A DNA stretch of 44,446 nt from a virus, in the IMG/VR virus record IMGVR_UViG_3300033571_011084, positions 1-44,446 of that record, one strand, 5' to 3'. The notes beneath the pieces were generated by a model. That model was not told the origin of the DNA. It worked only from the letters and a program-made list of their open reading frames with translations, and made no database searches. A program made the translations under genes and the position numbers. Shown here piece after piece: positions 29,476 through 44,446 of this stretch. How positions within the stretch are numbered: position 1 is the first letter of the stretch; each line of letters begins with the position of its first letter.

Positions 29476-29485
29476 GGTAAAGAAA

Positions 29486-31504
29486 ATGGCGTATACAATT
29501 AATAAAACTGACGGAACAATTTTAACTACTCTAGCTGACGGTCAGTTAGATAATGTAACTACCGATCTTACTCTTATAGGAAAAAATTATAGCGGGTTTG
29601 GAGATGCCTTAAATGAAAATTTTGTAAAATTATTAGAAAATTTTGCAGGTTCAGCTGTTCCGACAAATCCTATTAGAGGACAAATTTGGTTTGATACATC
29701 AGAATTTAAATTAAAAGTTTATAACGGATCTTCTTTTCAGCCAGTTTCTAGTGCTACTATATCCGATTCTCTCCCTACTGATATTGCTATAGGCGATTTA
29801 TTTTTTAATAGCACCGATAAGCAATTATATTTTTATGACGGCGTTAATCCTATATTGTTAGGTCCTGATTATTCCCAGAGTCAAGGATTAAGCGGATTAA
29901 AAGTTGTTAACGTATTAGATGATAGAAATCAAACTAGAATCGTTACACTTTTATATGTAAATGCTGTATTACTTGGCATCTTTTCAAAAGATACATTTAC
30001 ACCAAAAACAGAAATATCGGGATTTGGTAGAATTGAAATAATACCGGGATTTAATCAAGCAACCGCTGCCGGAATCAAATTTGCAGTCACCGCAACAAAT
30101 TCAGATAGATTAGGAAACCAACCAGCATCTTCATATGTTAGAAGTGATACAAGCGGATCCATCGAAGGCAACCTCAGTGTAAGAGATAATTTGCTAGTAG
30201 GAAGTGACGATCAGTTTCAACTAGTTGTAGATAATTCAAATGTACAAATGGCGAACATCGCCAATAATAAAAGTTTTAAAATAACTGTTAAGAAGGATCT
30301 AGAAGCTGAAGATGCTATAACTATTGATCCTATCACAAGAACTATCGGAATATATGATAACAATGCTTATATCAGTAGTCAAGTTAATATCGGCGGATCA
30401 TTATCCATAGCAGGAAACATTACTATTAATGGTACCCTTACAGTAAATGACGGAGATGTCACTATTGTAAAGACTACTGAATTAAATGTTGAAGATAAAT
30501 TAATTGTTTTGGCACAGACCGGTGACAGTAGTCTTAATAGGGACGAATATGCCGACGAGGGTGGTATAGTATTAAAAGGCGCTTATTTTGATGAAGAGGT
30601 TTCGAGTCCGACATATAATACTTGGGTATTAAAAGATCACATATTCCAATGGAGCAATTCGAACAAAGGTTCCTCAGGGACTAGAATGGCTCTAGCAGAC
30701 GATGCCTGGAATAGTTCCGAACATATAAATTTAGAAGCAGGAAAAGCATTTAAGATAAATGGAACTACTGTAATAGATGGTAGTAGTCTAGGACCAGGAA
30801 TTACCAGTATACCGGGGGTAACCAGTTTCGGACCTCAGATATTTGTTCAAATCGGTCCATCTGCAGGATCTCCGGTATTGAGATTAGAGCAAAATAGATT
30901 ATCTGCAGTCGCTACAAATTCTGATATACAAATTACTCCTAATGGTACAGGAAATATACAATTAAGACAGGTCACAGGATCTACTTATGGAACACAAACA
31001 AATGTAGGATTTCCTTTATTAAGGGGCGTTGCAACAACATCACAATCGGCACCTAGTCAAACTGGGGAATCACCATCTCTTATATCCGCTACAGAAAATA
31101 CAGAAGCCACCAACAAACAATATGTATTAAATTTTGTTAGAACTAGGTCATTGGTATTCAGTATGGATATTTCAGACGGCTTAACCAATGTCGGAATTGA
31201 AGGAATATTATCTACATTGGCTCCGATCACAGAATATGAAGTAGGGACTGTAGCACGAGTGTTATGTACATCATTAACAAACGCTAATTCTACAGCAGAT
31301 GTTGAATCAGCTAAATCTACATCGTTTACAAATTTCTTAACACCGCCTAGCGGATCACCGGGCACTTCGCCGGGAATATCGTCTGTTTCTTTCTCATCAG
31401 TTACTGTTCCTGCCCAGACTATCCAGGTTTCGCCTAGAACAGTTAAAACTTTTCAAATACAAATTGGTGTTGGTTGGAAATATATCAGTGAAACATTCGT
31501 ATAA
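29486..31504 (+). CDS. Tail fibre paralogue 2
   Basis: A 672-residue protein. Its first ~190 residues repeat the fibre N-terminal module: LIGKNYSGFGDALNENFVKL, IRGQIWFDTSEFKLKVYNG, GDLFFNSTDKQLYFYDG and SKDTFTPKTEISGFGRIE. The middle has the shaft-type run GGSLSIAGNITINGTLTVND and then VEDKLIVLAQTGDSS with EGGIVLKGAYF, a pattern common in fibres of marine T4-like phages. The C-terminus (TVKTFQIQIGVGWKYIS) is different from the other three paralogues, suggesting a different receptor tip or attachment role. AAGGTAAAG precedes the ATG. No catalytic motif is seen. Confidence 0.75.
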   Translation: MAYTINKTDGTILTTLADGQLDNVTTDLTLIGKNYSGFGDALNENFVKLLENFAGSAVPTNPIRGQIWFDTSEFKLKVYNGSSFQPVSSATISDSLPTDIAIGDLFFNSTDKQLYFYDGVNPILLGPDYSQSQGLSGLKVVNVLDDRNQTRIVTLLYVNAVLLGIFSKDTFTPKTEISGFGRIEIIPGFNQATAAGIKFAVTATNSDRLGNQPASSYVRSDTSGSIEGNLSVRDNLLVGSDDQFQLVVDNSNVQMANIANNKSFKITVKKDLEAEDAITIDPITRTIGIYDNNAYISSQVNIGGSLSIAGNITINGTLTVNDGDVTIVKTTELNVEDKLIVLAQTGDSSLNRDEYADEGGIVLKGAYFDEEVSSPTYNTWVLKDHIFQWSNSNKGSSGTRMALADDAWNSSEHINLEAGKAFKINGTTVIDGSSLGPGITSIPGVTSFGPQIFVQIGPSAGSPVLRLEQNRLSAVATNSDIQITPNGTGNIQLRQVTGSTYGTQTNVGFPLLRGVATTSQSAPSQTGESPSLISATENTEATNKQYVLNFVRTRSLVFSMDISDGLTNVGIEGILSTLAPITEYEVGTVARVLCTSLTNANSTADVESAKSTSFTNFLTPPSGSPGTSPGISSVSFSSVTVPAQTIQVSPRTVKTFQIQIGVGWKYISETFV

Positions 31505-31515
31505 TGGAGCGTTAG

Positions 31516-33648
31516 ATGGCTTATGTAATTAATAAATTCAACGGTGAAAGATTAACTGTTTTAGAAGACGGAACATTAGACAATTCTACAAGTTTAGGAC
31601 TTGTAGGAAGAAACTACACCGGTTACGGAGAAATACAAAATGAAAATTTTGTGTTCATTTTAGAAAATTTTGCTAACTCAACAGCACCTTCAAAACCTAT
31701 AACTGGACAGACTTGGTATAATACATCGACTAAAACATTGAATGTTTATAGTGGAACAGGATGGTCGCCCGCCGGCGGAGCTTCGGTCTCCGATACAGCA
31801 CCAAATTCAGCTGTAGACGCTGCCTCTACTAATCCTATTCCTGGGGCATTATGGTTTAAAAACAATACTAATCAGTTATATGTTTCAGATGGAGAGACAT
31901 GGAATCTTGTCGGACCAGATGCTATTGAGAATTTTGGAATAACAAAACTAGTAAGTAGATCTATCTCAGATGTTAATGGAGTACAACATCCTGCTGCACT
32001 TTTTTATAGCAATAATGAACCGATAGCTATCTATACAAGCGATTCGTTTACAATCAATACTTCGGAAAATTTGACTGGGTATACAGCTCTTGTAAGAGGT
32101 ATAAATCTAAAATCTGGAACAAATTTAAATGGAAATGTATTAGGTAATTCTACCAGCGCCACTAGATTAGAAAACTATGTGAACATTAATGGAATTCCTT
32201 TTGATGGTACTCAGAATATAAACATAAAATCTTCTACAGCTAATACCCTGTCAAGGGGAACATATCTTATAGGAAGTAATTTTGATGGTAGTTCTGCTAC
32301 TACTTGGTCAGTAGATGCATCATCGTCTAATATAATAGGAAAAGTAGTTGCTAGAGACACTTCTGGAAATTTTAGTGCAGGTACAGTCACAGCTGATCTT
32401 ATAGGAGATGTAACTGGAAATGTTACAGCTATTTCGGGAACCAGCAGATTCGATGTAATAGAAGCAAATACTTTTGTTGGAAATACTCTAACAGGAAATG
32501 CCAGAACTGCTTCGAGATTAGCTACACCGGTCACAATTAACGGAGTTTCTTTTGACGGCAGTGCAAATATTACGGTGTCTGCATCTGCCAATACTTTAAC
32601 AGGAAACACTATTCCGTCAAATGTATTTCAGTCTAGTTTAACCTCTGTAGGAACACTAGCTGACCTTAATGTAGGCGAATTTGGTATAAAAATTGGTAGT
32701 GGACAGCAATTAAAATTATATTTAGACAGTAATAATCCGACTATAGAGTCTACAGTTACAAGTGGCGGATTGAGTTTAGAAATTAATGATTCTCCAAAAA
32801 GTCAAAATAATCCTGCTGTCTCTTTTATCAGTTCTGCTCAGGCAGTTATATTAGGCGGCGATGATAATCCTGCATTCACTAAAACCAAAAGTGGTAATAT
32901 AAATTTAGGGTTACCTGATTTTAGATGGAATACTGTATATGCTACTGAATACCAAGGAAGCATATCAAGAGTCGGATCGTTGTATCCCACAGTGGGCGGA
33001 ACAACAATTACCGCTAATGCAGATTTTATTATAACAGGAAATCTTACTATACAAGGTACAACTTTATCAGTTAATTCAACTGTTGTAAATGTAGCAGATA
33101 AAACATTAACACTGGCATCCGGATCTCCAAGTTCTGCAGCAGCTGATCAATCGGGATTATTAATAGACGGATCCTTCGCTGAATTTTATTATAGAGCAAC
33201 AGGCGATAAATGGGTTTCAAATAAAGATATCGATGTAGGTGCCAATAAATTCCGAGGTAGAGCAACTTCGGCAGAATATGCCGACTTAGCTGAAAATTAT
33301 CTATCGGATAAAGCTTATGAGCCAGGAACAGTATTAGAATTTGGTGGCGAATTTGAAGTGACTTTAGCAGAGGACGAAACTAGAAGAGTTGCTGGTATTG
33401 TATCAACTAATCCTGGATATTTAATGAATTCTGAATGTAAAGGAAAATATGTTGTACCTATGGCGTTAGAAGGCCGTGTTCCTTGCAAAGTTAGAGGAAA
33501 AATACGTAAAGGTGATCTGCTTACTAGTGGAGGAAACGGGTATGCAAGACCATCAATAGATCCAAAAATTGGAACTATTGTAGGAAAAGCTCTTGAAGAT
33601 TTTGACGGCACAGAGGGAGTTATAGAAGTTGTTGTTTGTAAATTATAA
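31516..33648 (+). CDS. Tail fibre paralogue 3 with YADLAE-type C-terminal domain
   Basis: A 710-residue protein starting with the shared module (LVGRNYTGYGEIQNENFVFI, ITGQTWYNTSTKTLNVYSG). The shaft contains GDVTGNVTAIS, GNTLTGNARTASRLATPVTI and IITGNLTIQGTTLSVNSTV. The last ~125 residues (586-710) begin AEYADLAENYLSDKAYEPGT and continue through RRVAGIVSTNPGYLMN to GRVPCKVRGKIRKGDLL. This compact beta domain is shared with the next fibre (582 residues). It loosely resembles C-terminal chaperone or autoprocessing domains of other fibres, but I do not see evidence for proteolysis. GGAGCG is the likely ribosome binding site. Confidence 0.75.
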   Translation: MAYVINKFNGERLTVLEDGTLDNSTSLGLVGRNYTGYGEIQNENFVFILENFANSTAPSKPITGQTWYNTSTKTLNVYSGTGWSPAGGASVSDTAPNSAVDAASTNPIPGALWFKNNTNQLYVSDGETWNLVGPDAIENFGITKLVSRSISDVNGVQHPAALFYSNNEPIAIYTSDSFTINTSENLTGYTALVRGINLKSGTNLNGNVLGNSTSATRLENYVNINGIPFDGTQNINIKSSTANTLSRGTYLIGSNFDGSSATTWSVDASSSNIIGKVVARDTSGNFSAGTVTADLIGDVTGNVTAISGTSRFDVIEANTFVGNTLTGNARTASRLATPVTINGVSFDGSANITVSASANTLTGNTIPSNVFQSSLTSVGTLADLNVGEFGIKIGSGQQLKLYLDSNNPTIESTVTSGGLSLEINDSPKSQNNPAVSFISSAQAVILGGDDNPAFTKTKSGNINLGLPDFRWNTVYATEYQGSISRVGSLYPTVGGTTITANADFIITGNLTIQGTTLSVNSTVVNVADKTLTLASGSPSSAAADQSGLLIDGSFAEFYYRATGDKWVSNKDIDVGANKFRGRATSAEYADLAENYLSDKAYEPGTVLEFGGEFEVTLAEDETRRVAGIVSTNPGYLMNSECKGKYVVPMALEGRVPCKVRGKIRKGDLLTSGGNGYARPSIDPKIGTIVGKALEDFDGTEGVIEVVVCKL

Positions 33649-33662
33649 GAATAATTTAACAC

Positions 33663-33669
33663 ATAAATA
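33663..33669 (+). promoter_or_regulatory. T4-like late promoter (ATAAATA) before fibre paralogue 4
   Basis: ATAAATA in the 41-base gap after fibre paralogue 3 ends 21 bases before the ATG at 33690. The predicted leader contains CGGAG (33678-33682), the same ribosome binding site as behind the promoter at 2112. It gives the downstream fibre its own late transcript in addition to readthrough. Confidence 0.6.
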
Positions 33670-33689
33670 CTGAATATCGGAGTTTATAG

Positions 33690-35438
33690 ATGGCATATCA
33701 AGTTGATAAATTTAACGGCACTTTTTTGGTATCAGTCGATGATGGTACTATTGATACTACCACAGATCTAAGATTTGTAGGTAAAAATTATGCCGGATAC
33801 GGAGAGGTTCAAAATGAAAACTTCCTTCATTTGCTAGAAAATTTTGCTAATACTACAGCCCCGCCAAAAAGAATTACTGGTCAAATATGGTTCGATACAG
33901 GAAGTAAAAAGCTTAAATTTTTTGACGGTACTAGATTTAGAACTTCCAGCGGAGCAGAAATAGGAAGTACACCACCTACAGGTTTACAAACAGGAGATTT
34001 ATGGTTCGATACCAGTGCTGAGCAACTTTATACGTGGAATGGTACGGAATATATATTAATTGGCCCTGAAGCTAGTCCTACTACAGGTGAATCGGCAGCA
34101 GTTCAGGACACTGTAAAAGATGATGTTAATAACAATCATTCTATTTTAAAATTAGTTTCTGAAGGCGAAGTTGTTGCTATTTTAAGTGCTGATGCTTTTA
34201 GGCTGAATACATCTAATCCGATTACGGGTTTTCAAGATATAAAGAAAGGTATCAATCTAGTTAATACTAATGGTACTACAGGAGTTACCAGCACAGATCA
34301 TTATTTTTGGGGTACTGCTTCTAATGCTGCAAAATTAGGAGGTTTTTCCGCCTCGGATTTTGTAAGAGCTGGTGCTGCTACGTTTTCAACAGGTTTATCT
34401 GTAGCTGATTCGGGAATAACCATTGGCGATCAAAATGATTTAAGAATTTGGGTTGAAGACGGTAACAATGTTTTATTAGAAAATCAGCTCGGAGATAATA
34501 TAACATTTAGAATCAAGACTTCTGTAGATCTTGATGTTTTAAGAATAGGAGCCACAGGAGTATTTCCTGCAGCAGACGGAACGTTTAATTTAGGAACAAC
34601 AGGATCATCGTGGTTACAGGTCACAGCCTCTACATTTAATGGTGCATTAGTAGGAAACGTTACTGGAAATACAACAGGTATACACAAAGGAAATGTGTTA
34701 GCCAGTGATAATTCGGTAGCGTACAACGCAACAACAAAGGTTTATACTGGTAGTTTTTCTGGAAATTTAACCGGAAACGTTACAGGTAGTGTTACAGGAA
34801 CTGCAACATCTGCATCTACACTAGGAGGCATCAGCGCATCTGAGTCGGTGGTTGTTAGTACTATCCCAATTAGAAACTCTTCGGGAAATATTTTAGCTAA
34901 TCAGTTTGTTGGAACTACAGATAAGGCAGATCGATTAAGAATTAATGATGCTGCATCGGATACTGATCCAAACTACCGTTCAGCAAAGACTACCGCTACA
35001 GCCAATACTATCGCAGCTAGAGATGCGTCTGGAGATATATATGCTGTTAAGTTTAGAGGAACGGCAACAGCAGCAGAGTACGGAGATCTAGCAGAAAAAT
35101 ATCTTCCAGATCAGGATTATGAAGTAGGAACAGTTGTATCTGTGGGCGGCGAAAAAGAAATTACAGCATCTAAATTTGGAGATAGAGCTATCGGTGTTAT
35201 CTCGGAAAAACCAGCATACCTTATGAATGATGGATTAGTTGGCGGTGTTGCAGTGGCATTAAAAGGAAGGGTTCCTGTTAAAGTAGTAGGATCAATTAAA
35301 AAGGGAGATAGGCTGATAGCAGTCAACAATGGCGCGGCTCAAAAAGCTGCTTATCATTCTTATCCTGATGTTTTTGCCATAGCCCTAGAAACTAGCGATG
35401 AAGTACAACAAAGAATCATTGAATGTATTGTAATATAA
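33690..35438 (+). CDS. Tail fibre paralogue 4 with YGDLAE-type C-terminal domain
   Basis: A 582-residue protein with the shared N-terminal module (FVGKNYAGYGEVQNENFLHL, ITGQIWFDTGSKKLKFFDG, GDLWFDTSAEQLYTWNG). The shaft includes GALVGNVTGNTTGIHKGN and SGNLTGNVTGSVTGTATSAS. The C-terminal domain (462-582) starts AEYGDLAEKYLPDQDYEVGT and passes through RAIGVISEKPAYLMN and GRVPVKVVGSIKKGDRL, matching the end of the previous fibre. Both probably use this end for trimer folding or as a tip. It has its own late promoter, so its dosage may be set separately. Confidence 0.75.
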   Translation: MAYQVDKFNGTFLVSVDDGTIDTTTDLRFVGKNYAGYGEVQNENFLHLLENFANTTAPPKRITGQIWFDTGSKKLKFFDGTRFRTSSGAEIGSTPPTGLQTGDLWFDTSAEQLYTWNGTEYILIGPEASPTTGESAAVQDTVKDDVNNNHSILKLVSEGEVVAILSADAFRLNTSNPITGFQDIKKGINLVNTNGTTGVTSTDHYFWGTASNAAKLGGFSASDFVRAGAATFSTGLSVADSGITIGDQNDLRIWVEDGNNVLLENQLGDNITFRIKTSVDLDVLRIGATGVFPAADGTFNLGTTGSSWLQVTASTFNGALVGNVTGNTTGIHKGNVLASDNSVAYNATTKVYTGSFSGNLTGNVTGSVTGTATSASTLGGISASESVVVSTIPIRNSSGNILANQFVGTTDKADRLRINDAASDTDPNYRSAKTTATANTIAARDASGDIYAVKFRGTATAAEYGDLAEKYLPDQDYEVGTVVSVGGEKEITASKFGDRAIGVISEKPAYLMNDGLVGGVAVALKGRVPVKVVGSIKKGDRLIAVNNGAAQKAAYHSYPDVFAIALETSDEVQQRIIECIVI

Positions 35439-35450
35439 GGAATAATAAAA

Positions 35451-36470
35451 ATGGCATCAGTCGGATCAAGAATATCAGCAGCAGATTATAACGCTATCAG
35501 AAATAAAATTATAGCTGTTATGGGAACAGGGACAACCAACCCTACTACCGGATTGACTGATTATACATTTGGCTACGGTCAACAGTTGATGAGTTCTGCA
35601 GTGGCAGCAGGTCAAACTATTACCAGGTCTCAATTTGAACTTTTAAAAAGCGATATCCTTAATGCTAGATTACATCAAGATGGAACTAGTCCTACTGTTA
35701 CTACAGTAAACAGTGGAGATGTTATTAGATATGGTGCCACCCATCCAGTTACGCAGTACGATTCCTTAACCAATACTGCCATTGCTAATAAATTTAATCT
35801 TGGAACTGGTTACTTTAGTACAGTATCAATTAAAGACAGCGGTGGCGTTGATCTTCCAATGCCTATTACCAGAACGACTAGTTGGAGTTCTGCTGTTTCT
35901 TGCACCGTTACCGTTACTTTTCCTAGTTCCAATGCCATGCGTTATTTCTTTAACAGTGGCGGTAGGATAAATTTTAATAGTACAAGAACTGGAGGTGCTT
36001 CAACTTCTCAAAACAGTATATGGTCTAGTACTTTAACATCTGCCGGGACGCAAGGCTTAGGCGCGATCAGTAGTGGCAACCAAGGAGTTAATTTTTATAA
36101 TCTTACAACTACTGATCAAATTTGGTATTCTATTACATCTTCAGCACCGTATGCTTCAAACACATGGAGATTACGTGCTAGATTAGCAAGTGGTGTTGTG
36201 GGTAGTTCTTCGTTTACTGCGACACAGATTATTTTCACAGCAACTTGGTCTGACGGATATACAGATCCGGATGTATCAGCTGGGTTACCCGCTCTTACTA
36301 ATCCTCCCGGTGATGTAGTTGACGGAACTTTAAATTTAACAGTTACTCAAACTTATGCCGGAAGTACTGCTGGAATTAATTTATTACCTATAGTGACTCC
36401 TCCCGCCGTTCAACCAGTTTGGACGATTACTTTGCCTACATATAGCAATACATCAATCACCGGTTCATAA
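35451..36470 (+). CDS. Virion structural or fibre-associated protein
   Basis: A 339-residue protein rich in Ser, Thr, Gly and Asn. It starts with a helical segment (ISAADYNAIRNKI, then ITRSQFELLKSDILNARLHQ) and continues as beta-type sequence with MRYFFNSGGRINFN (163-176), a motif I know from fibre-associated proteins of marine T4-like phages. No enzyme motif is present. It closes the fibre block: it follows fibre paralogue 4 after 12 bases with TAAGGAA as ribosome binding site, and a strong hairpin follows its stop. A structural role is inferred from composition and position. Confidence 0.6.
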   Translation: MASVGSRISAADYNAIRNKIIAVMGTGTTNPTTGLTDYTFGYGQQLMSSAVAAGQTITRSQFELLKSDILNARLHQDGTSPTVTTVNSGDVIRYGATHPVTQYDSLTNTAIANKFNLGTGYFSTVSIKDSGGVDLPMPITRTTSWSSAVSCTVTVTFPSSNAMRYFFNSGGRINFNSTRTGGASTSQNSIWSSTLTSAGTQGLGAISSGNQGVNFYNLTTTDQIWYSITSSAPYASNTWRLRARLASGVVGSSSFTATQIIFTATWSDGYTDPDVSAGLPALTNPPGDVVDGTLNLTVTQTYAGSTAGINLLPIVTPPAVQPVWTITLPTYSNTSITGS

Positions 36471-36530: not shown

Positions 36531-36881
36531 ATGGATGAACGTCTTCGAAAAGCCTTAGATTTTTCTAATTTTAGGCACACATTTTCAATTCAACGAAAAA
36601 TTTTAAAAGAAAAAAATGAAGCTAGGCTTACCTATGGCTATAGCGGCGGTATATTTAAAATAGATATGTCGTTAATAACTTTTGTTGATATGCTTATCAA
36701 TAATGGCAGAAAAAACGATGTTCCTATTTTAGATTCTAATAATAATCCAATTTTGATTAATGATTTAGAAGATTTTAAAAATGAAATATTAGATAGATAT
36801 TTTACTTCTACTTTAGAATATTATAAAGAATATGAAAAAGTAAAGAAAACTCGTTCATTGGAAAAACTTTTAGAACTATGA
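36531..36881 (+). CDS. Conserved small phage protein of unknown function
   Basis: A 116-residue charged protein. The N-terminus reads DFSNFRHTFSIQRKILKEKN, then YSGGIFKIDMSLITFVDMLI, and it ends with a helical Lys/Glu-rich segment (LEYYKEYEKVKKTRSLEKLL). I recognise this style from small conserved proteins located after fibre genes in marine T4-like phages, without a known function. It leads the cassette of overlapping genes and overlaps the next gene as ATGA. AAGGG six to eight bases upstream supports the start. A role linked to fibres or to the following glycosyltransferases is inferred from position only. Confidence 0.55.
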   Translation: MDERLRKALDFSNFRHTFSIQRKILKEKNEARLTYGYSGGIFKIDMSLITFVDMLINNGRKNDVPILDSNNNPILINDLEDFKNEILDRYFTSTLEYYKEYEKVKKTRSLEKLLEL

Positions 36882-37738
36882 ATAACGGCGTACTAATTTT
36901 TGCTCATAACAGTCCTTTTATTGATTACGGCACACTGGCAATAATATCTGGAGGCCTAGCCAAAAAAAATCTTAAGGTACCTGCATCATTAGTGACAGAT
37001 AGCGGAACTTTATCATGGTTAAAAACGGCTGGATTAGAGAAAAAATTAAACGATGTTTTTGAAAAAATTATAGAAATAGAATACCCTTATACAGAAAACA
37101 CGAGAAAACTTTATGATGGATTCCATCATCAAACTGTACCGTTTTTAAATTCTAATAGATGCGATGCTTATTCTTTAAGCCCTTATGATAACACGTTATT
37201 AATAGATAGCGATTTTTTAATTTTCACTGATAGATTAAATGAATACTGGAATGTTGAATCCAGTGTGATGATTGGTGATTCTATAAATGACATCTTAGAA
37301 GATCGTCCGGGATATCTTGATAAAAGAATTTCTGAATCAAGTATTCCTTTATTGTGGGCCACTACGGTTATGTTTAAAAAAAATAAAGAAAGCGATTTTT
37401 TCTTTAAATTAGTAGAATTTATAAAATTAAATTATGTTTATTTTGCTGACCTTTTTAGATTTAATCCATCACAGTTTAGAAATGATATTGCCTTTAGTAT
37501 TGCCAAACATATATTGAGCGGTTATGAGATTGAAAACGTTTACAATCTTCCTCCTATAACTTCTGTTTTAGATAAAGATATTTTATTAGAAGTTGATAAT
37601 ACAGGAAAGATGATAATTTTAATGAATCCGCACGATGACGGAAACTATAAATCTGCAAAAATTTTAAACACTGATATTCATGTTATGAACAAACAAAGTA
37701 TTATCAGGAATAAAGATATGCTAATGGAATTAATATGA
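36878..37738 (+). CDS. GT8-like glycosyltransferase (GT-A fold), copy 1
   Basis: A 286-residue protein. It opens with GVLIFAHNSPFIDYGTLAII, a nucleotide-binding-type beta-alpha start, and has a DxD motif in DNTLLIDSDFLIFTD (D110, D112), the usual metal/nucleotide-sugar site of GT-A enzymes. The next gene has the same layout (GYLIFASNENIDY, LDADMLFLRD), so the two are tandem paralogues of a glycogenin/GT8-like group. The sugar donor and acceptor cannot be told from sequence. The gene overlaps both neighbours by four bases (ATGA), implying coupled translation. Confidence 0.55.
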   Translation: MNNGVLIFAHNSPFIDYGTLAIISGGLAKKNLKVPASLVTDSGTLSWLKTAGLEKKLNDVFEKIIEIEYPYTENTRKLYDGFHHQTVPFLNSNRCDAYSLSPYDNTLLIDSDFLIFTDRLNEYWNVESSVMIGDSINDILEDRPGYLDKRISESSIPLLWATTVMFKKNKESDFFFKLVEFIKLNYVYFADLFRFNPSQFRNDIAFSIAKHILSGYEIENVYNLPPITSVLDKDILLEVDNTGKMIILMNPHDDGNYKSAKILNTDIHVMNKQSIIRNKDMLMELI

Positions 37739-38580
37739 ACTTTGGTTATTTAATATTTGCTTCTAATGAAAATATAGATTATCTTAAAATGGCCTACGGC
37801 TTAGCCATCAGCATTAAAAATACTCAGAAAGAAGGGTACGATAAAGTAGCATTGGTAATAGATGATAAGTCAAAAGTTGAAAATCTCGCCTCTCCCTGGG
37901 TATTTGATACAGTTATAGAATGGAATCAAAAGACAGGATGGGATGGTCGTTCTTGGATGGACGATTTAACACCTTTTGAGAACACGGTATGTTTAGATGC
38001 AGATATGTTATTCTTAAGAGACTATAGTCATTGGATAGATTATTTTATTGAAAATAATATAGAATTATATCTACCAAATAAAAGTTATACATTTAGGAAT
38101 GATGTTGTAACGGATAACTTTTATAGAAGAACTTTTGAAAAAAATGGACTTCCTAATCTTTATAGTTTTTATACTTTTTTTAATAAAAATTCTGACTTGG
38201 CTAAAGAATTTTTTTCTTTAGGAAGATACATTATAGAAAATCCTATCGAGTTTTCGAACTTATTTTTAAGTAATCATATACCGAAGATTTTAGGTACTGA
38301 TGAAGCGTTTGCTTTAAGTGCAAAAATTTTAGATATATCCGACGAAATCAGTTATGATTTGAGTTTTCCTTGTATAACACATCTTAAGCCTAGAATACAA
38401 GATTGGTCATTTTCTTCAGATAAAGTTACAGATCACGTGGGATTTTATTTAAATGATCAAGGAAATTTAAAGATCGGAAATTTTCAACAAACAAATATTA
38501 TTCATTATGTTGAAAAAGATTTAATGACCGACGAGTATATAAGTCTTTTAGAGGATATTTTATGGTCCAAGAAACAGTAG
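37735..38580 (+). CDS. GT8-like glycosyltransferase (GT-A fold), copy 2
   Basis: A 281-residue paralogue of the preceding gene. It starts GYLIFASNENIDYLKMAYGL and carries the DxD motif within TVCLDADMLFLRD (D88, D90). A later LGTDEAFALSAKILD (about residues 188-202) and a CITHLKP segment fit the acceptor and metal-ligand region of GT-A enzymes. The core is better preserved than in copy 1. The acceptor could be a fibre protein, capsid protein or host glycan; nothing in the sequence decides. It overlaps the next gene by 19 bases. Confidence 0.6.
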   Translation: MNFGYLIFASNENIDYLKMAYGLAISIKNTQKEGYDKVALVIDDKSKVENLASPWVFDTVIEWNQKTGWDGRSWMDDLTPFENTVCLDADMLFLRDYSHWIDYFIENNIELYLPNKSYTFRNDVVTDNFYRRTFEKNGLPNLYSFYTFFNKNSDLAKEFFSLGRYIIENPIEFSNLFLSNHIPKILGTDEAFALSAKILDISDEISYDLSFPCITHLKPRIQDWSFSSDKVTDHVGFYLNDQGNLKIGNFQQTNIIHYVEKDLMTDEYISLLEDILWSKKQ

Positions 38581-39158
38581 TTGAAGATTATTTTGATTTA
38601 ACGGTAGATATTCCTGTCATAAAATACTATATTCGATTTGCTCTAGAATCGGGTGTAATTACAGAAGTTTTTCCTAGTTGGTCTAATATAACTGATAATG
38701 ACTGTCTGGAAATTGACGATGACCTAGCCGACGATCTCTTAACCGGAATTAAAACATTATCTTCTATTAGAATAGATACTAGTCAACTTCCTTTTAAAAT
38801 TTTAGAAAATCAAAATTACGATCTTGTGTTAAGTAAAATTGATAATGTGTTACATAGAGTAATTGAGAAGAAGTGGTCAAACATATCTAAACCTGATATT
38901 CAGATAATTTACGATAGAAAAGAAGAAGAACTTATTTTTAAAATTAACCCGTCGATAAAAGAAATGTCTTGGCCCGGCGAAAAAGAACTGATATTTTTAA
39001 TTACCGGCTATAATGATCCTAATAACTTAAAAGAGATGATTAGATTTTCTATAGACGAATTATCAGCATATCCTCAAAAATTTAAATTTAAATTGCGCAG
39101 CAAATTTAGTATTTTTACAAGAAGGTTGTTTTCTAATTATACTTTGGAAATTAAATGA
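38562..39158 (+). CDS. Uncharacterised protein in the modification cassette
   Basis: A 198-residue protein I do not recognise. It is acidic in the N-terminal half (IDDDLADDLLTGIKTL) and basic at the C-terminus (KFKFKLRSKFSIFTRRLF). The pattern is mixed alpha/beta, with a WPGEKELIFLITGYNDP segment near residues 138-154. No signal peptide or membrane span is visible. It starts inside the previous gene with GAGG (38551-38554) as a good ribosome binding site and ends in an ATGA overlap with the next glycosyltransferase. The tight coupling suggests it works with the flanking enzymes, possibly as an accessory or acceptor-binding protein, but this is a guess from position. Confidence 0.5.
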   Translation: MVQETVVEDYFDLTVDIPVIKYYIRFALESGVITEVFPSWSNITDNDCLEIDDDLADDLLTGIKTLSSIRIDTSQLPFKILENQNYDLVLSKIDNVLHRVIEKKWSNISKPDIQIIYDRKEEELIFKINPSIKEMSWPGEKELIFLITGYNDPNNLKEMIRFSIDELSAYPQKFKFKLRSKFSIFTRRLFSNYTLEIK

Positions 39159-40072
39159 AAATTATAGAATTCGATGTTATTTTTTTAAGCTATGATGAAC
39201 CTAACGCAGATTTGCATTATGCAGATCTGTGCAATAAGGTGCCTTGGGCAAAACGTGTCCACGGAGTGAAAGGTAGCGACCACGCACACAAAGCCGCCGC
39301 TGAAAAATCCGAGACGGATTGGTTTATAACTGTAGATGCCGACAATATTGTAGATCCTAAGTTCTTTAATATCGACTTAGATATGAATGATCCTAAGATT
39401 CGAGTCTATGGTTGGTGCGGTCGTAATGTTATCAACGGATTACGTTATGGCAATGGAGGATTAAAAATCTGGAAAAAAGATTTCGTCCTTAATATGAAAA
39501 CTCATGAAAATTCTGATAGCGATAGAGGACAGGTCGATTTCTGTTGGGAAGATGGTTATCGTAACTTTCCCTTAAGCTTCAGCGATAGCATTATCATCGG
39601 ATCGCCTTTTCAAGCATGGAGAGCAGGATTTCGTGAAGGTGTAAAAATGACACTGCTTGATGGTGTTAAGGTCCCTCCTTTAGAAATACAACAGAGAATA
39701 TGGTGGCACAATATACATAGATTGCGTATGTGGTCAACTGTCGGCAGTCACGAAGAAAACGGACTCTATGCAGTTTACGGAGCCAGACTAGGAACATGGA
39801 TGGCTAACTGTACAGATTGGAATTATGTAGATGTTAGAGATTTTGAGATCTTAAGAGATATCTGGAAACAATACGGCAAGCCTTATGAAGAAGTTAACGG
39901 TGATGGATTAATTGAAGCTACCAAAGACCTCGGAGAAAAAATCAAGTTAGGTCTAGGATTACATTGGCCATATCTAGATGCTGCTCAAAGCAAGTATACG
40001 CTAGATCTATATAACGAAACAATGAATTTAAACGACACATATTTTAAGATGCCCGTTCCCGCAAATGTATGA
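39155..40072 (+). CDS. GT2-like glycosyltransferase of phage type
   Basis: A 305-residue protein. The N-terminus FDVIFLSYDEPNADLHYADL is followed by AKRVHGVKGSDHAHKAAAEK and the DxD motif in WFITVDADNIVD (D61, D63), then NVINGLRYGNGGLKIWKKDF. This is the GT-A/GT2 arrangement and closely matches the C-terminal domain of the next gene (YDIVFISYNEPNADENW ... WIVDGDAEIVDEF ... NPINGLIYGYGGVKLL). The gene is visibly richer in G+C than the genes before it. It overlaps the previous gene by four bases and the next by eight. The transferase role is inferred; the substrate is unknown. Confidence 0.62.
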   Translation: MKIIEFDVIFLSYDEPNADLHYADLCNKVPWAKRVHGVKGSDHAHKAAAEKSETDWFITVDADNIVDPKFFNIDLDMNDPKIRVYGWCGRNVINGLRYGNGGLKIWKKDFVLNMKTHENSDSDRGQVDFCWEDGYRNFPLSFSDSIIIGSPFQAWRAGFREGVKMTLLDGVKVPPLEIQQRIWWHNIHRLRMWSTVGSHEENGLYAVYGARLGTWMANCTDWNYVDVRDFEILRDIWKQYGKPYEEVNGDGLIEATKDLGEKIKLGLGLHWPYLDAAQSKYTLDLYNETMNLNDTYFKMPVPANV

Positions 40073-42341
40073 TATTTTTTATGTTTCTAAAGATAATGGA
40101 TTTGATGACACTTGGAAGAAAATCAAATCTAAATATCCTATTGCACAACGATTGTCTAATGTTAAATCATATGAAAGTATACGTTCTCGAGCATTTACAA
40201 AAATGTTTTGGGTCATATGGGATGATCTAGAAATTAACGAAACTATTGATTTATTAGAATATAAAGTCTCAAAGTGGGACGATATGTATGTTCACGTTTT
40301 CAAAAATGGAGAACATTACGATGGTATTTGTTTATTTCCTAAATCAGAAAATATTTCTCAACGGGAATTTGATCATAGATTTTTTAATAATAAAAAAGAA
40401 ATAGCCATCGTAGCAAGCGTCCCTAAACCTTTCGACAAATTTTTCGTAAACTCTTACGACGAATATCTTTCAGCATTACAAAGTTCTTCTACTGAAATGT
40501 TTTGGGTTATATGGAAAGATGTTGATATTATAGAAGACTTTGGCTTTGATTATCAAGTACCGTCGTACAACAGAAATGTAGTCCATATATTTAAGAACGG
40601 TGATCATCACGACGGTATATGTTTATTTCCTAAATCTACAACAGTTTCGAGCAAAGAGTTTCAGCATCGATTTTTTTCAAATAAAAAAGAAATCGATATA
40701 CAAGCAAGTGCTCCTAAGCAATACAGTGTTTATTCCCCACTAACATATGACGAGTATTTAGATATTCAAGATGATATGTTTTGGCTAGTATGGCCAAATC
40801 TGTCAGTCATTGATCAAACAGTTTTTAACATATATTTTAGCCATCACAACTCTTACGATAGATCTGAACATCACATTTTTAAAAACAGATGTTATGATAA
40901 AGAAATGTTTGTCAATGGTATTATGTTATGCACTAAGAAAAAAACTATTTCAAAACGAGAGTTTGATATTAGATATCTAGTCGATAAAAAAGAACATGAC
41001 AGAGTAGTATCTAAATCTCAATATCCTATTTTAACAGCAAATACATATGATCAATATTTAGAAACTTTAAAAACTTCAAAAGATGATATGTTTTGGCTAG
41101 TATGGCCTAATATCAAAATGACAGATGAATCAGTTTTTGATCTATACTTTGATCCACGTGACGGCAAGTATGATCATGACAGATCTGAACATCACATTTT
41201 TAAAAACAGATGTTATGATAAAGAATCTTTTGTCAATGGCGTTATTTTATGCACTAAGAAAAAAACTATTTCAAAACGAGAGTTTGATATTAGATATCTA
41301 GTCGATAAAAAAGAACATGACAGGATAGTATCTAAATCTCAATACCCACTGGTTGAAATTTCTGAATATGATGATTATTTGTCTGCTCTAGAATCAGTCC
41401 AAGATGATATGTTTTGGGTATCCTATCCTGAAATAGAAATAATAGACGAATCAGTTTTCGATCTGTACTTTGACCCACGTGACGGCAAGTATGATTATGA
41501 TAGAAGTATTAATCATGTGTTCCTCCATCATTTTAAAGAAAAAGAACACACTTATAATGGTCTCATGTTAATGAGTAAAAACTCTCAGGTCGGAAAGAGA
41601 GAAATAGATTTTAGATATCTTATCAATAAAAAAGAACAAGAAATCATTGCGTCTCAACATAAACTATATGACATAGTGTTTATCAGTTACAATGAACCTA
41701 ACGCCGATGAGAATTGGAACAATCTTAAAGAAAAATATCCTCGTGCTAAACGAGTACACGGAGTTAAAGGAATCCATCAAGCTCACATTCGAGCAGCAGA
41801 AATTTGCTCTAGTGAAATGATATGGATAGTAGATGGAGATGCTGAAATAGTTGACGAATTTAGTTTTGATCATGTTGTTACGAGATATGAAAAGAATATA
41901 GTACATGTTTGGAGAAGTCAAAATCCTATTAACGGATTAATCTACGGTTATGGGGGCGTAAAACTGTTGCCACGCCATCTAACCTTAGCTATGGATGTAA
42001 ACAGTACTGATATGACTACATCGATTAGCGATCAGTTTATAGCTATGAAAGCAGTTTCGAATGTCACGGTGTTTAATACTGATCCATTCAATACATGGAA
42101 ATCAGCATTTAGAGAGTGTGCCAAACTTTCTGCTAAATTAATTAATAGACAGGATGATGATGAAACCAATGAACGATTAGTAGTATGGTGTAGTCAAGGC
42201 AAAGATAAACAATACGGAGAATATGCTATTGCAGGAGCTATCGCCGGAAGAGATTTTGGGTTATCTGCCAAAGATGATCAGACCCAGCTAGCTAAAATTA
42301 ATGACTTTGAATGGTTGAAACGGAAATTTGATGGAGTTTAA
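40065..42341 (+). CDS. Repeat-bearing GT2-like protein: five degenerate modules plus an intact glycosyltransferase domain
   Basis: A 758-residue protein. Five repeats start near residues 47, 145, 238, 342 and 449, each with MFW(V/L)(I/V/S)(W/Y)xx, a later HxFKN or HVF segment and a (K/R)EF or REI then (F/Y)(F/L).(N/D)KKE end. The C-terminal domain (535-758) has an intact DxD (D590, D592 in WIVDGDAEIVDEF) and matches the preceding gene. Each repeat aligns with the front of that domain, but where the domain has DGD the repeats have WDD, WKD, WPN, WPN and YPE. So they look like decayed, non-catalytic copies kept as structural or binding modules. Repeats 3 to 5 are very similar at DNA level. There is no clear ribosome binding site, so coupling to the previous gene is likely. 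Confidence 0.6.
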   Translation: MYDIFYVSKDNGFDDTWKKIKSKYPIAQRLSNVKSYESIRSRAFTKMFWVIWDDLEINETIDLLEYKVSKWDDMYVHVFKNGEHYDGICLFPKSENISQREFDHRFFNNKKEIAIVASVPKPFDKFFVNSYDEYLSALQSSSTEMFWVIWKDVDIIEDFGFDYQVPSYNRNVVHIFKNGDHHDGICLFPKSTTVSSKEFQHRFFSNKKEIDIQASAPKQYSVYSPLTYDEYLDIQDDMFWLVWPNLSVIDQTVFNIYFSHHNSYDRSEHHIFKNRCYDKEMFVNGIMLCTKKKTISKREFDIRYLVDKKEHDRVVSKSQYPILTANTYDQYLETLKTSKDDMFWLVWPNIKMTDESVFDLYFDPRDGKYDHDRSEHHIFKNRCYDKESFVNGVILCTKKKTISKREFDIRYLVDKKEHDRIVSKSQYPLVEISEYDDYLSALESVQDDMFWVSYPEIEIIDESVFDLYFDPRDGKYDYDRSINHVFLHHFKEKEHTYNGLMLMSKNSQVGKREIDFRYLINKKEQEIIASQHKLYDIVFISYNEPNADENWNNLKEKYPRAKRVHGVKGIHQAHIRAAEICSSEMIWIVDGDAEIVDEFSFDHVVTRYEKNIVHVWRSQNPINGLIYGYGGVKLLPRHLTLAMDVNSTDMTTSISDQFIAMKAVSNVTVFNTDPFNTWKSAFRECAKLSAKLINRQDDDETNERLVVWCSQGKDKQYGEYAIAGAIAGRDFGLSAKDDQTQLAKINDFEWLKRKFDGV
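40861..41503 (+). repeat. Recent tandem duplication inside the repeat-bearing gene
   Basis: The stretch 40861-41027 recurs at 41182-41348 with only a few base changes, an offset of 321 bases (107 codons). The stretch 41130-41182 recurs at 41451-41503 with the same 321-base offset. The intact reading frame across both copies shows the duplication was tolerated and kept in frame. Repeats 1 and 2 are much more diverged. Confidence 0.85.
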
Positions 42342-43758
42342 TAGGAACATAAAAGGAAATGGATTAAGAAAAATTGATGGTAGATATCAATCGAGATATC
42401 TACTTGACGCTGAATACGTTCATCAACAATTAAACAAAATTAGTAATAGTTTTTGTTTAGCTAAGTGGTTCAATGTCAGTATACATATTCCTACAGGTCG
42501 TACACATAGTTGTTATCATCCTAGAAGTCACGTAATACCAAATGAAGAAATTAAAATCGATGTAAGTGCATTGCATAATACGAAATATAAAAAAAGCCAA
42601 AGACAATTAATGTTAGAAGGAGTTCGTCCCAAGGAATGTGAATTTTGTTGGCAGATAGAAGACAGCGGTTCACAACTCAGTGACAGAGCATATAGAAGTA
42701 AAGATGTTTGGGAACCAGAACTTATTGAAGAAGCTTTAACAGTCGGAGCCAGCGGCAATGCCAATCCTAGATATGTTGAGGTAAATTTTAATCAGGCCTG
42801 CAATTTTAAATGTAGTTATTGTAGTCCTCATCTTAGCACTGCCTGGATGGATGAGATTAAAAAATGCGGTCCTTATAAATTGTCTGACAGGATTCATAAT
42901 GATACAAGATGGATCGAAAGCGAAGTTCCGATCAATAACGGTCCCGATAATCCTTATCTTTTAGCATTCTGGGAATGGTTGCCACAAATTTATCCTACGC
43001 TACAAACTTTCCGTATGACTGGCGGTGAGCCGTTGATGGACAAAAACACTTTTAGAATGTTTGACTACGTTAAATTAAATCCTAAGAAAGATTTACATTT
43101 GAGTATTACAAGTAATTGCTGCCCTCCAGGTGAGCAATGGTCTAAGTTTATGACCGGTCTAAAAGAAATTACAGATGCGGATGCTATAGATCATTTTATG
43201 TTATTTTGCAGTTTAGACAGTTGGGGCAAGCAGGCAGAATATATACGTAACGGAATGGATTTTAATTTACTTTATAAAAATGTTTGTGATTATTTACAAA
43301 ATTCAGATAAGCATAGTCTTACATTTATAATTACTTTTAATTCATTAAGTTATACAGGATTTTACAACTATATTGAAAATATTTTAAATTTGAGAAAACA
43401 ATATAATGTAAATCGTCAATTAGTTTGGTTCGATGTTCCGCAATTAATAGATCCGGATTTTTTAAATCCTAAATTAATTCCTGAATTAATTCCTGAATTA
43501 GAAAAAACTATTGAATTTATGAAACGAAATCCTGAAACACGATGGAACGAATTTAAAGGTTTCAGTGATTTTGAAATTAGTAAAGTTCAAAGATTAATTG
43601 ATTGGATAAAATCAGATACAGGATTTAATAAAAATTTAGCAATGGAAAATTTTTATATGTTTTTTAGTCAGCACGATAAACGTAGAAACACAAATTTTTT
43701 GGAAGCGTTTCCGGAATTAGAAAATTTTTGGAAGGAATGTAAGAATAGTGTCACGTAA
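42331..43758 (+). CDS. Radical SAM protein (possible twitch-type auxiliary cluster)
   Basis: A 475-residue protein. The core motif is CNFKCSYC (C157, C161, C164; CxxxCxxC), which binds the SAM-cleaving [4Fe-4S] cluster, with GGEPL (231-235) after it. The N-terminal region has more cysteines (THSCYHP, then KECEFCWQIEDSGSQLSDR), arranged as in phage radical SAM proteins with an auxiliary cluster in a twitch/SPASM-like domain. Such enzymes modify peptides, sugars or nucleotides by radical chemistry; the substrate here is unknown. The ATG at 42331 is chosen over a TTG directly before it. The gene overlaps the previous by 11 bases and the next by 11. Confidence 0.78.
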   Translation: MEFNRNIKGNGLRKIDGRYQSRYLLDAEYVHQQLNKISNSFCLAKWFNVSIHIPTGRTHSCYHPRSHVIPNEEIKIDVSALHNTKYKKSQRQLMLEGVRPKECEFCWQIEDSGSQLSDRAYRSKDVWEPELIEEALTVGASGNANPRYVEVNFNQACNFKCSYCSPHLSTAWMDEIKKCGPYKLSDRIHNDTRWIESEVPINNGPDNPYLLAFWEWLPQIYPTLQTFRMTGGEPLMDKNTFRMFDYVKLNPKKDLHLSITSNCCPPGEQWSKFMTGLKEITDADAIDHFMLFCSLDSWGKQAEYIRNGMDFNLLYKNVCDYLQNSDKHSLTFIITFNSLSYTGFYNYIENILNLRKQYNVNRQLVWFDVPQLIDPDFLNPKLIPELIPELEKTIEFMKRNPETRWNEFKGFSDFEISKVQRLIDWIKSDTGFNKNLAMENFYMFFSQHDKRRNTNFLEAFPELENFWKECKNSVT

Positions 43759-44446
43759 ACTTTATATTTTTGGAGATAGTTTTTCAACAAGTTACGAACA
43801 GCCGTCTTTGATTCAAAGGATTTTTGAAAATATTAGATTACATGCAAAACAGCTATCATGGATAGAACAACTTTCTCGAAAATATAAAGTAAGAAATTTT
43901 TCAAAAGGCGGCTACAGTAATTCTCATATTTTTTTAAAATTTGTTGAAAACATTGATAGTATAAGTAGCAACGATTTTGTTATTATTGGATGGTCAGATG
44001 TAACACGACCTTATGCAAATGTAAAAATGAACAACGAGTTAAGAAAATTGTATACGGAACATTTTTACAATTATAGGTTGCATGGCGAACAAACTAAACT
44101 GTATATGGCAAGGGTGAAAGAACTTCTTATTGAACGAAATATACCTCATTTGATTTTTTGGGCATTCCCTAGTGAGTATACTAACGGTTCTTCTCGGTCT
44201 TGTCGAATTCTTGAAGAATATATTTACTATGATAATTTTGCAAATGAAATCCGCCCTGCGCTAATATATTTTTCAAGAATGGAATTAGACCCCACTCTTA
44301 GTCCACAAGAGATTATTAAGATATTGGAAGATGATTCAAGACCCAATCATTTAGGCGAATGGTGCATTCATGATGAATTATTTAAAATAGTAGTAGATGT
44401 AATAGACGGAAAGTTATCCGGAATGATAGATTTAAAACAAAGGTTA
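43748..44446 (+). CDS. SGNH/GDSL-type hydrolase, 3' end outside the window
   Basis: An open frame of 233 codons that runs off the window end, starting with GTG inside the radical SAM gene; AAGGA lies 10 to 15 bases upstream. An ATG at 43738 is in frame with an immediate stop and cannot be used. The protein begins SRKLYIFGDSFSTSYEQPS, giving the block I GDS motif with the nucleophilic serine. NFSKGGYSNSHI and VIIGWSDVTRP resemble blocks II and III, and DDSRPNHLGEW supplies the block V Asp-His pair. Members act as esterases or acetylhydrolases and some as acyltransferases. In this cassette it could deacylate or acetylate a glycan; this is inferred from context. Confidence 0.65.
   Translation, partial: MSRKLYIFGDSFSTSYEQPSLIQRIFENIRLHAKQLSWIEQLSRKYKVRNFSKGGYSNSHIFLKFVENIDSISSNDFVIIGWSDVTRPYANVKMNNELRKLYTEHFYNYRLHGEQTKLYMARVKELLIERNIPHLIFWAFPSEYTNGSSRSCRILEEYIYYDNFANEIRPALIYFSRMELDPTLSPQEIIKILEDDSRPNHLGEWCIHDELFKIVVDVIDGKLSGMIDLKQRL

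Follow-up and report, generated by a model that had tools for sequence, protein, structure and literature searches.

The locus described here raises the question of why a phage would carry a row of overlapping glycosyltransferase-like genes, with a radical SAM enzyme and an SGNH-like hydrolase, directly beside its tail-fibre genes. The window, 44,446 nucleotides long, is the whole of IMG/VR record IMGVR_UViG_3300033571_011084, which is itself fragmentary. All eight ORFs of the overlapping run proposed in the original prediction were found at 36531-44446, with lengths of 116, 286, 281, 198, 305, 758, 476 and at least 233 amino acids in gene order, and the overlaps between neighbours, put at 4 to 19 nt, measured 4, 4, 19, 4, 8, 14 and 11 nt. 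The ORFs are real, but eight is not the gene count of the cassette: a fibre gene stands at its start and about ten more genes lie downstream, the window stopping inside the cassette with the last ORF cut by the contig end.

From the baseplate genes to the cassette, all genes lie on one strand, with intergenic gaps of at most 60 nt. An upstream protein of 4872 aa matches giant virion/baseplate families of PHROGs, and four more fibre-like genes occupy 27358-35438, including one in the same-strand run (33690-35438, plus strand) that encodes a fibre with a Peptidase_G2 intramolecular-chaperone domain (PF11962, 28.5 bits). The cassette thus adjoins the tail fibres within the structural region. No T4-type late promoter (TATAAATA) was present in the window, so that the timing of expression cannot be inferred, and sigma-70-like sites were no commoner there than expected by chance.

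The conserved unit begins one gene earlier than had been noted, at a Ser/Thr-rich fibre gene (35451-36470, plus strand) recognized by its ORF, composition and synteny. Its product of 339 aa, the probable acceptor, contains 28% Ser+Thr (34.5% Ser+Thr+Asn) and was the most Ser/Thr-rich and least charged among the eight virion proteins compared; family searches with it returned nothing useful. The order fibre-o1-GT8a-GT8b-(o4)-o5 was observed in all 51 testable contigs fetched by o5, and fibre, o1 and GT8a lay upstream of GT8b in all 49 testable contigs fetched by GT8b. When contigs were fetched with distant fibre proteins, i.e., not with enzymes, the same fibre-to-o5 order was seen in 68 out of 69; the lone exception (L327) had a far longer fibre (1284 aa), and its downstream module may sit outside the fetched sequence. 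Among distant contigs with a readable order, 11 out of 11 agreed, down to about 25-35% identity, and a twelfth (L173) lacked only the fibre match. In a scan of a bacterial collection, o1, GT8a and GT8b co-occurred in the same 13 loci, two of which (L101 and L257) overlap on one contig. Because this gene order recurs in 51/51, 49/49 and 68/69 contigs, the arrangement is not due to chance. Scattering of these genes among relatives had been named as evidence against the prediction, and the reverse was seen, the genes being always together and in order. Carriers of the block are large uncultured phages from lakes and the sea.

The enzymes of the block were characterized by motifs, profiles and predicted structures. 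For GT8b (37735-38580, plus strand), two residues of a DxD-like motif, D88 and D90, were invariant across 20 relatives in the alignment. Its AF2 model (pLDDT 80, pTM 0.84) matched the GT8 structure 3tzt in Foldseek (E 3.3e-7) and many further GT8 structures, with best matches including LARGE1, xyloside xylosyltransferase 1 and glycogenin, which act on glycoproteins; GT8b is thus a predicted transferase with a GT8-type GT-A fold. The preceding GT8a gene (36878-37738, plus strand) has an invariant D110 and D112 pair, also DxD-like, across 20 relatives, and its product appears GT8-like from its profile relationship to GT8b (hhalign probability 97) and from weak glycogenin matches (E about 0.2) that span the DxD region. 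Sequence-profile searches of the PDB with GT8b, o5 and o5/o6 returned nothing.

The o5 gene (39155-40072, plus strand) encodes a putative GT-A-like glycosyltransferase with an invariant VDADN motif, and is the most conserved enzyme gene of the cassette. An initial reading of its constraint (pN/pS 0.12) came from loci picked by o5 similarity, and its extreme degree was not upheld: with loci chosen by GT8b added, the mean distance of o5 was 0.22 versus 0.32-0.58 for the others, i.e., still the lowest, although less extremely so. Its homolog o6 (40065-42341, plus strand; 758 aa) consists of five degenerate GT-A-like units in tandem, followed by a single DxD-bearing GT-A-like C-terminal domain at about 41650-42341. 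Within o6, a recent tandem duplication (40857-41347, plus strand) comprises 170-nt copies that are 94% identical and spaced 321 nt apart. The AF2 model of o6 (pLDDT 84, pTM 0.57) matched GT-A folds in Foldseek with low TM scores (at most 0.17 over the whole query). Family searches with o5 and o6 yielded nothing useful, and the predicted GT-A assignment of both draws on the o6 model together with o5-o6 homology. Both have bacterial relatives, those from Dyadobacter lying in a glycan-type gene cluster. Non-transferase folds, also named beforehand as counter-evidence, were not what was obtained, as both modelled proteins (GT8b and o6) gave GT-A folds.

Two small genes of the block matched no family in family-profile searches. 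The first, o1 (36531-36881, plus strand; 116 aa), is always located between the fibre gene and GT8a and encodes a candidate chaperone or adaptor. The second, o4 (38562-39158, plus strand; 198 aa), evolves fast (mean column identity 53%, mean distance 0.58) and occupies the same slot in most relatives.

Downstream, rSAM1 (42328-43758, plus strand) is firmly assigned by sequence to the radical SAM family NF033640 (N_Twi_rSAM), with a score of 308 bits against a curated cut-off of 170, a CxxxCxxC motif (CNFKCSYC) at residue 158 and N-terminal Cys. Its matches in cultured phages were limited to Vibrio phages at 22-23% identity, and no named substrate was found for the family. The last gene (43748-44446, plus strand; truncated where the contig stops, its L002 version having 237 aa) encodes a putative accessory SGNH-like hydrolase, so classified from a GDSF motif at residue 9 and a PNHLG motif near residue 200; it had no family match in Pfam, PHROGs or NCBIfam. 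This gene was present in 12 of the 80 loci fetched by o5, some of which end short of its position. Extension of the contig, as had been proposed, was achieved with a near-identical contig (L002/G001), which continues the cassette by about ten genes, including four further radical SAM genes, a second SGNH-like gene and a UDP-sugar dehydrogenase gene. In G001, opposite-strand genes close the cassette, and no gp14 was recognized in the remaining 11 kb. None of the proteins of the extended cassette had a membrane-like segment, and none was recognized as a flippase, polymerase or lipid-linked initiating transferase. In most of the contigs tested, the cassette contained between three and five radical SAM genes.

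Synteny and folds support the proposal that GT-A-type enzymes and a radical SAM enzyme are produced together next to the fibres, and a block so linked to a fibre gene suggests that the phage sugar-coats its own fibres. We estimate a probability of about 0.55 that the fibre is glycosylated by cytoplasmic enzymes ahead of assembly and that radical SAM and SGNH enzymes tailor its glycan. Besides the fixed block and the GT8b matches, this reading draws on the lack of membrane-like segments, the high Ser/Thr content and low charge of the fibre, the single-strand run of genes from the baseplate onward and the glycan-type cluster around the Dyadobacter relatives of o5/o6. The fibre encoded at 35451-36470, and perhaps the neighbouring fibres, would be made in the host cytoplasm along with o1 and the transferases. 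There, GT8a, GT8b, o5 and o6 would act as soluble, nucleotide-sugar-dependent enzymes, assembling an oligosaccharide step by step on Ser/Thr (or Asn), with sugar added before the fibre enters the virion. Proteins o1 and o4 might serve in acceptor presentation or folding, and the o6 repeats could be decayed copies of a transferase core, possibly acting as acceptor-binding modules. The radical SAM, SGNH-like and UDP-sugar dehydrogenase enzymes would make or tailor unusual sugars, as an accessory part that varies between phages. The benefit to the phage may lie in adsorption, stability or hiding of the fibre.

The original prediction saw no clear counterpart among known phage pathways; however, the host recognition cluster described for pelagimyophages has radical SAM cassettes, GT8 enzymes and UDP-glucose dehydrogenase next to tail fibres (PMC7029224). 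This cluster, also present in cyanomyophages, is described as large and non-syntenic and lies between VrlC and the neck gene gp14 (PMC7029224). Like the present locus, it is an aquatic myophage island that adjoins tail fibres and carries GT8 along with other glycosyltransferases, but here an ordered core that includes a specific fibre gene is kept across distant contigs, and neither the o6 repeat protein nor a fibre-o1 linkage appears in the passages of its description that were consulted (PMC7029224). Hypervariable, non-syntenic content would be expected of such a cluster, whereas in the present contigs the core order was fixed and only accessory genes varied; in G001, the cassette ends at opposite-strand genes, with no gp14 recognized in the remaining 11 kb.

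The other function originally proposed, a change of the host surface, is less favoured than virion or fibre glycosylation, given that the conserved unit includes the fibre gene. The enzymes would then alter host LPS/O-antigen or capsule against superinfection or re-adsorption of progeny, and would adjoin the fibre since the same receptor is concerned. We consider this doubtful, although such a role has been proposed for the pelagimyophage cluster with the genes named above (PMC7029224) and for the polymorphic glycosyltransferase clusters of jumbo cyanophages (PMC7824862). The UDP-sugar dehydrogenase, the bacterial relatives of o5/o6 in glycan clusters and the variable accessory part also agree with it, whereas the fixed association of the core with a fibre gene is unlike the sporadic cyanophage clusters, and membrane proteins, flippases and lipid-linked initiation enzymes are all absent from the extended cassette. 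Peripheral transferases of host O-antigen are likewise soluble, so the missing membrane segments are not decisive. Enzymes matched to a fibre-specific receptor would moreover predict correlated divergence of fibre and transferases, and no co-evolution beyond linkage was found (partial correlations of fibre with GT8a and GT8b of 0.03 and 0.04). This result, together with the separate history of o5, leaves matched fibre-enzyme specificity unsupported, and the linkage may reflect a common position in a host-recognition island.

A different acceptor, whether another virion protein or a host protein, or a peptide chemistry is less probable again: radical SAM enzymes might modify fibre side chains that are then glycosylated, or sugar might be added to the giant baseplate protein or to o4. 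For sugar tailoring alone, three to five radical SAM genes are many, and o4 is small, fast-evolving and inside the block; however, no named substrate was found for NF033640, and neither o4 nor any other protein stood out as an acceptor. A role apart from glycan coats, in DNA modification, small-molecule biosynthesis or anti-defence, is very improbable. Phage glycosyltransferases can modify DNA, viperins are radical SAM enzymes, and a weak viperin-like match (30 bits) was obtained across the radical SAM core, but this match extends over no more than about 115 residues and its score is far lower than that for NF033640, the remaining proteins match no defence family, and the cassette lies among late structural genes rather than replication genes.

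Parallels for fibre glycosylation exist in other systems. To our knowledge, virion glycosylation in mycobacteriophages involves different genes, with neither a fibre-linked multi-enzyme cassette nor a radical SAM enzyme. Phage-encoded glycosyltransferases have been linked there to glycosylation of the capsid and tail tube (Freeman et al. 2023, as cited in PMC12619734). Islands of serine-rich-repeat adhesins (Fap1) similarly link an adhesin gene to a row of transferases adding sugars stepwise, and the Fap1 pathway functions when reconstructed in E. coli (PMC5207161); the analogy stops there, as they have other transferases, export machinery in place of virion assembly, and no radical SAM enzyme. 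The multidomain A111/114R glycosyltransferase of chlorovirus PBCV-1 is thought to glycosylate a virion protein without host organelles (PMC7826918), but it has a eukaryotic host and several catalytic domains, whereas o6 has one DxD-bearing domain plus degenerate units.

In its broadest form, our reading is of a widespread, ordered fibre/o1/GT8a/GT8b/o4/o5 module with radical SAM tailoring that glycosylates the fibre in the cytoplasm, is frequent among uncultured myophages of fresh waters and the sea, was not found in a search of 50,697 phage records and was possibly borrowed by a Bdellovibrionales bacterium; we place this at slightly below even odds. If true, many aquatic phages coat their receptor-binding fibres with sugar through a dedicated enzyme line, and their host range and adsorption would have to be read differently from sequence. 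It would also offer a defined acceptor-enzyme set for rebuilding in E. coli and substrates for the NF033640 family, and would open to a two-way test the accepted assumption that glycosyltransferases of host recognition clusters act on host LPS.

The same gene set, sought elsewhere as the original prediction proposed, was found in uncultured contigs but was absent from the cultured phages searched: tblastn against the 50,697 phage records gave no match for o5 (queried with the window version and two distant versions), o6, GT8a, GT8b or the fibre. The only non-phage-looking copy (L101, Bdellovibrionales) is terminal on a metagenome contig that has pheS/pheT and other housekeeping genes; GC drops from about 0.45 to 0.37 toward the module, and GT8a was absent from 290 other genomes of the phylum. 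This copy may be a chimeric contig or a prophage remnant and is not used as key evidence. The T4 core, to which the cassette had originally been compared, is a poor yardstick, as the nearest cultured relatives of the baseplate proteins, at about 35%, are those of jumbo phages (Atu_ph07, Phosso, SCTP-2, PA5oct and Munch). T4-type baseplate proteins and a late sigma factor resembling gp55 are nevertheless present.

The eight open reading frames (ORFs) of the cassette (36531-44446, + strand) were confirmed in the window, on a single strand with overlaps of 4-19 nt. Directly preceded by a gene encoding a Ser/Thr-rich 339-aa protein (the fibre; 35451-36470, +), they comprise o1 (36531-36881), the GT8-like glycosyltransferase genes GT8a (36878-37738) and GT8b (37735-38580), o4 (38562-39158), the GT-A-like o5 (39155-40072) and o6 (40065-42341), the radical SAM gene rSAM1 (42328-43758), and an SGNH-like gene (43748-44446). 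The window record is linear (44,446 bases) and its end falls within this last ORF. In contig IMGVR_UViG_3300032322_001460 (67,941 bases), whose proteins are 100% identical to those of the window across the shared cassette, the SGNH-like protein is full length (237 aa). The extension holds four further radical SAM genes, a second SGNH-like gene, a gene for a 397-aa protein without a family match, an isochorismatase-like gene (assigned by reading the sequence), and one for a UDP-glucose/GDP-mannose dehydrogenase-family protein. Gene overlaps run from downstream of the fibre as far as the 397-aa gene; one opposite-strand gene separates the latter from the last two cassette genes, and the cassette ends where genes switch to the other strand.

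Invariant DxD-type residues were present in each of the o5, GT8b, and GT8a alignments. A GT8b model built from a 20-sequence alignment (pLDDT 80, pTM 0.84) matched GT8 structures, xyloside xylosyltransferase 1, LARGE1, UGGT, and glycogenin in Foldseek. Profile comparison showed GT8a to be a homologue of GT8b (probability 97 in hhalign); the best PDB profile matches of GT8a, to glycogenin, were weak and spanned the DxD region. The o5 protein shares about 31% identity with the C-terminal domain of o6. rSAM1 scored 308 bits against NF033640 (cut-off 170), and nine large related contigs each contained 4 to 18 matches to this family, some below the cut-off.

Gene order was conserved starting at the fibre. 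Among the matches listed by tblastn for the 80 loci nearest by o5, the order was fibre-o1-GT8a-GT8b-o4-o5-o6-rSAM, with accessory differences. Fibre membership was tested with loci fetched by o5, by GT8b, and by two distant marine fibre proteins. The fibre, o1, GT8a, GT8b, and o4 lay upstream of o5 in all 51 testable contigs, and the fibre, o1, and GT8a upstream of GT8b in 49 out of 49. With the two marine fibres (35 of 80 and 34 of 46 loci testable), o1, GT8a, GT8b, and o5 followed downstream in that order in 68 out of 69 cases; matching of o4 was weaker, and the L158-type group gave no o4 match. The same order recurred at about 25-50% identity in contigs from the bacterial collection, which are probably phage contigs binned into genomes, since most carry phage fibres. 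Eleven of them (one Bdellovibrionales contig, L101, counted once) had the fibre, o1, GT8a, and GT8b in order, with o5 next wherever the contig reached its position; in locus L173, the sole missing element was a fibre match. Some loci are mutually related (L099 with L170; L158, L161, and L169), so lineages are fewer than contigs. GT8a sequences formed 47 clusters at 70% identity. Because the loci are homologous and only best matches were kept, the counts should not be taken as independent trials; what carries weight is that the order persists at deep divergence.

Within the module, mean amino-acid distances were 0.22 for o5, 0.32 for GT8b, 0.38 for o1, 0.43 for GT8a, and 0.58 for o4 (pooled loci from the o5 and GT8b selections). 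Compared with three large contigs, o5 was 88-91% identical, a level resembling that of RNase H-type and GTP-cyclohydrolase-like genes, versus 29-65% for its left-hand neighbours; its pN/pS of 0.12 is biased low, as loci were picked by o5. Distances of o5 were uncorrelated with those of other genes (rho -0.08 to 0.27), and o5 has therefore probably been exchanged in place. Correlations of fibre divergence with that of GT8a and GT8b disappeared after controlling for neighbours.

The o6 protein of the window consists of five transferase-core-like units without the DxD pair, followed by one C-terminal unit retaining it. Its model (pLDDT 84, pTM 0.57) matched GT-A enzymes at low TM-scores, including K4 chondroitin polymerase, RmlT, polypeptide GalNAc-transferase, and WrtF; a search of viral structure libraries gave strong matches along its length to just two proteins, both uncharacterised and from uncultured phages. 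All but one of 56 non-identical relatives (439-973 aa) had 3-8 units. Among them, 52 instances of the D(G/A)D motif were counted (VDGDA 44, VDADA 5, IDGDA 3), about one per protein, with WPEI, WDDV, and similar instead in the remaining units; in the window it occurs in the C-terminal unit only. Two tandem 170-nt copies in the window's o6 (40857-41347; 321-nt spacing) are 94% identical, and copy number is thus changing now, through ongoing expansion and contraction of a decayed transferase unit.

A profile scan of the genome collection with o5/o6 yielded 79 loci, many of them from Streptomyces, which commonly hold a distant relative of the o5/o6 domain (about 35%). In the two Streptomyces loci examined (L111 and L137), a GT4-like gene lay directly upstream of this relative; the one relative tested, from L137, had no Pfam or NCBIfam family. 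Rhodobacterales were also found, as was Dyadobacter, with two transferase-domain proteins (Pfam Glyco_tranf_2_4; weak Glyco_trans_1_4) within a glycan-type cluster. In Bdellovibrionota locus L108, o5-like, o6-like, and NF033640-like genes occur together. The full fibre-to-o5 order follows pheT in the Bdellovibrionales metagenome contig (L101; G010:C21 127060-139884), as a chromosomal copy, a prophage remnant, or a chimera. There, housekeeping genes precede fibre-o1-GT8a-GT8b-o5 and radical SAM genes.

Aquatic myophages are already known, from a pelagimyophage study (PMC7029224), to have glycan-gene islands next to their fibres that include radical SAM genes, and a marine T4-like genome has 12 radical SAM genes (PMC5332604). 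In the open-access literature searched, no description was found of the ordered fibre-containing module, its spread, or the o6 repeat architecture. PMC7029224 and a jumbo cyanophage study (PMC7824862) read similar islands as altering the host surface, which for the cassette enzymes we consider the less likely reading. The best fit is a cytoplasmic protein acceptor, with glycosylation of the fibre (probability about 0.55), because the fibre-enzyme block is fixed and the enzymes are soluble, no export or lipid-linked machinery was found, the fibre is Ser/Thr-rich and uncharged, and the cassette is placed in a same-strand run of structural genes. Other acceptors or other chemistry take up the probability left by these two readings.

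The T4-type late promoter TATAAATA was absent from the window, versus 9.6 occurrences expected from shuffles (sd 3.3), a shortfall suggesting that a functional site is avoided. The near-identical 67,941-base contig had two occurrences, lying 8 nt and 35 nt upstream of the starts of genes on the opposite strand. This contig also encodes a 355-aa GT-B-like protein (L082, 1201-2268), 76-78% conserved across three contigs and without a PHROGs match; its gene sits among replication and nucleotide genes, and it is possibly DNA- or nucleotide-related. In a related 281,658-base contig with 18 NF033640 matches overall, a second, radical SAM-rich island lies at 230-262 kb (L095-L097), with genes reading like oxygenases and an amidinotransferase.
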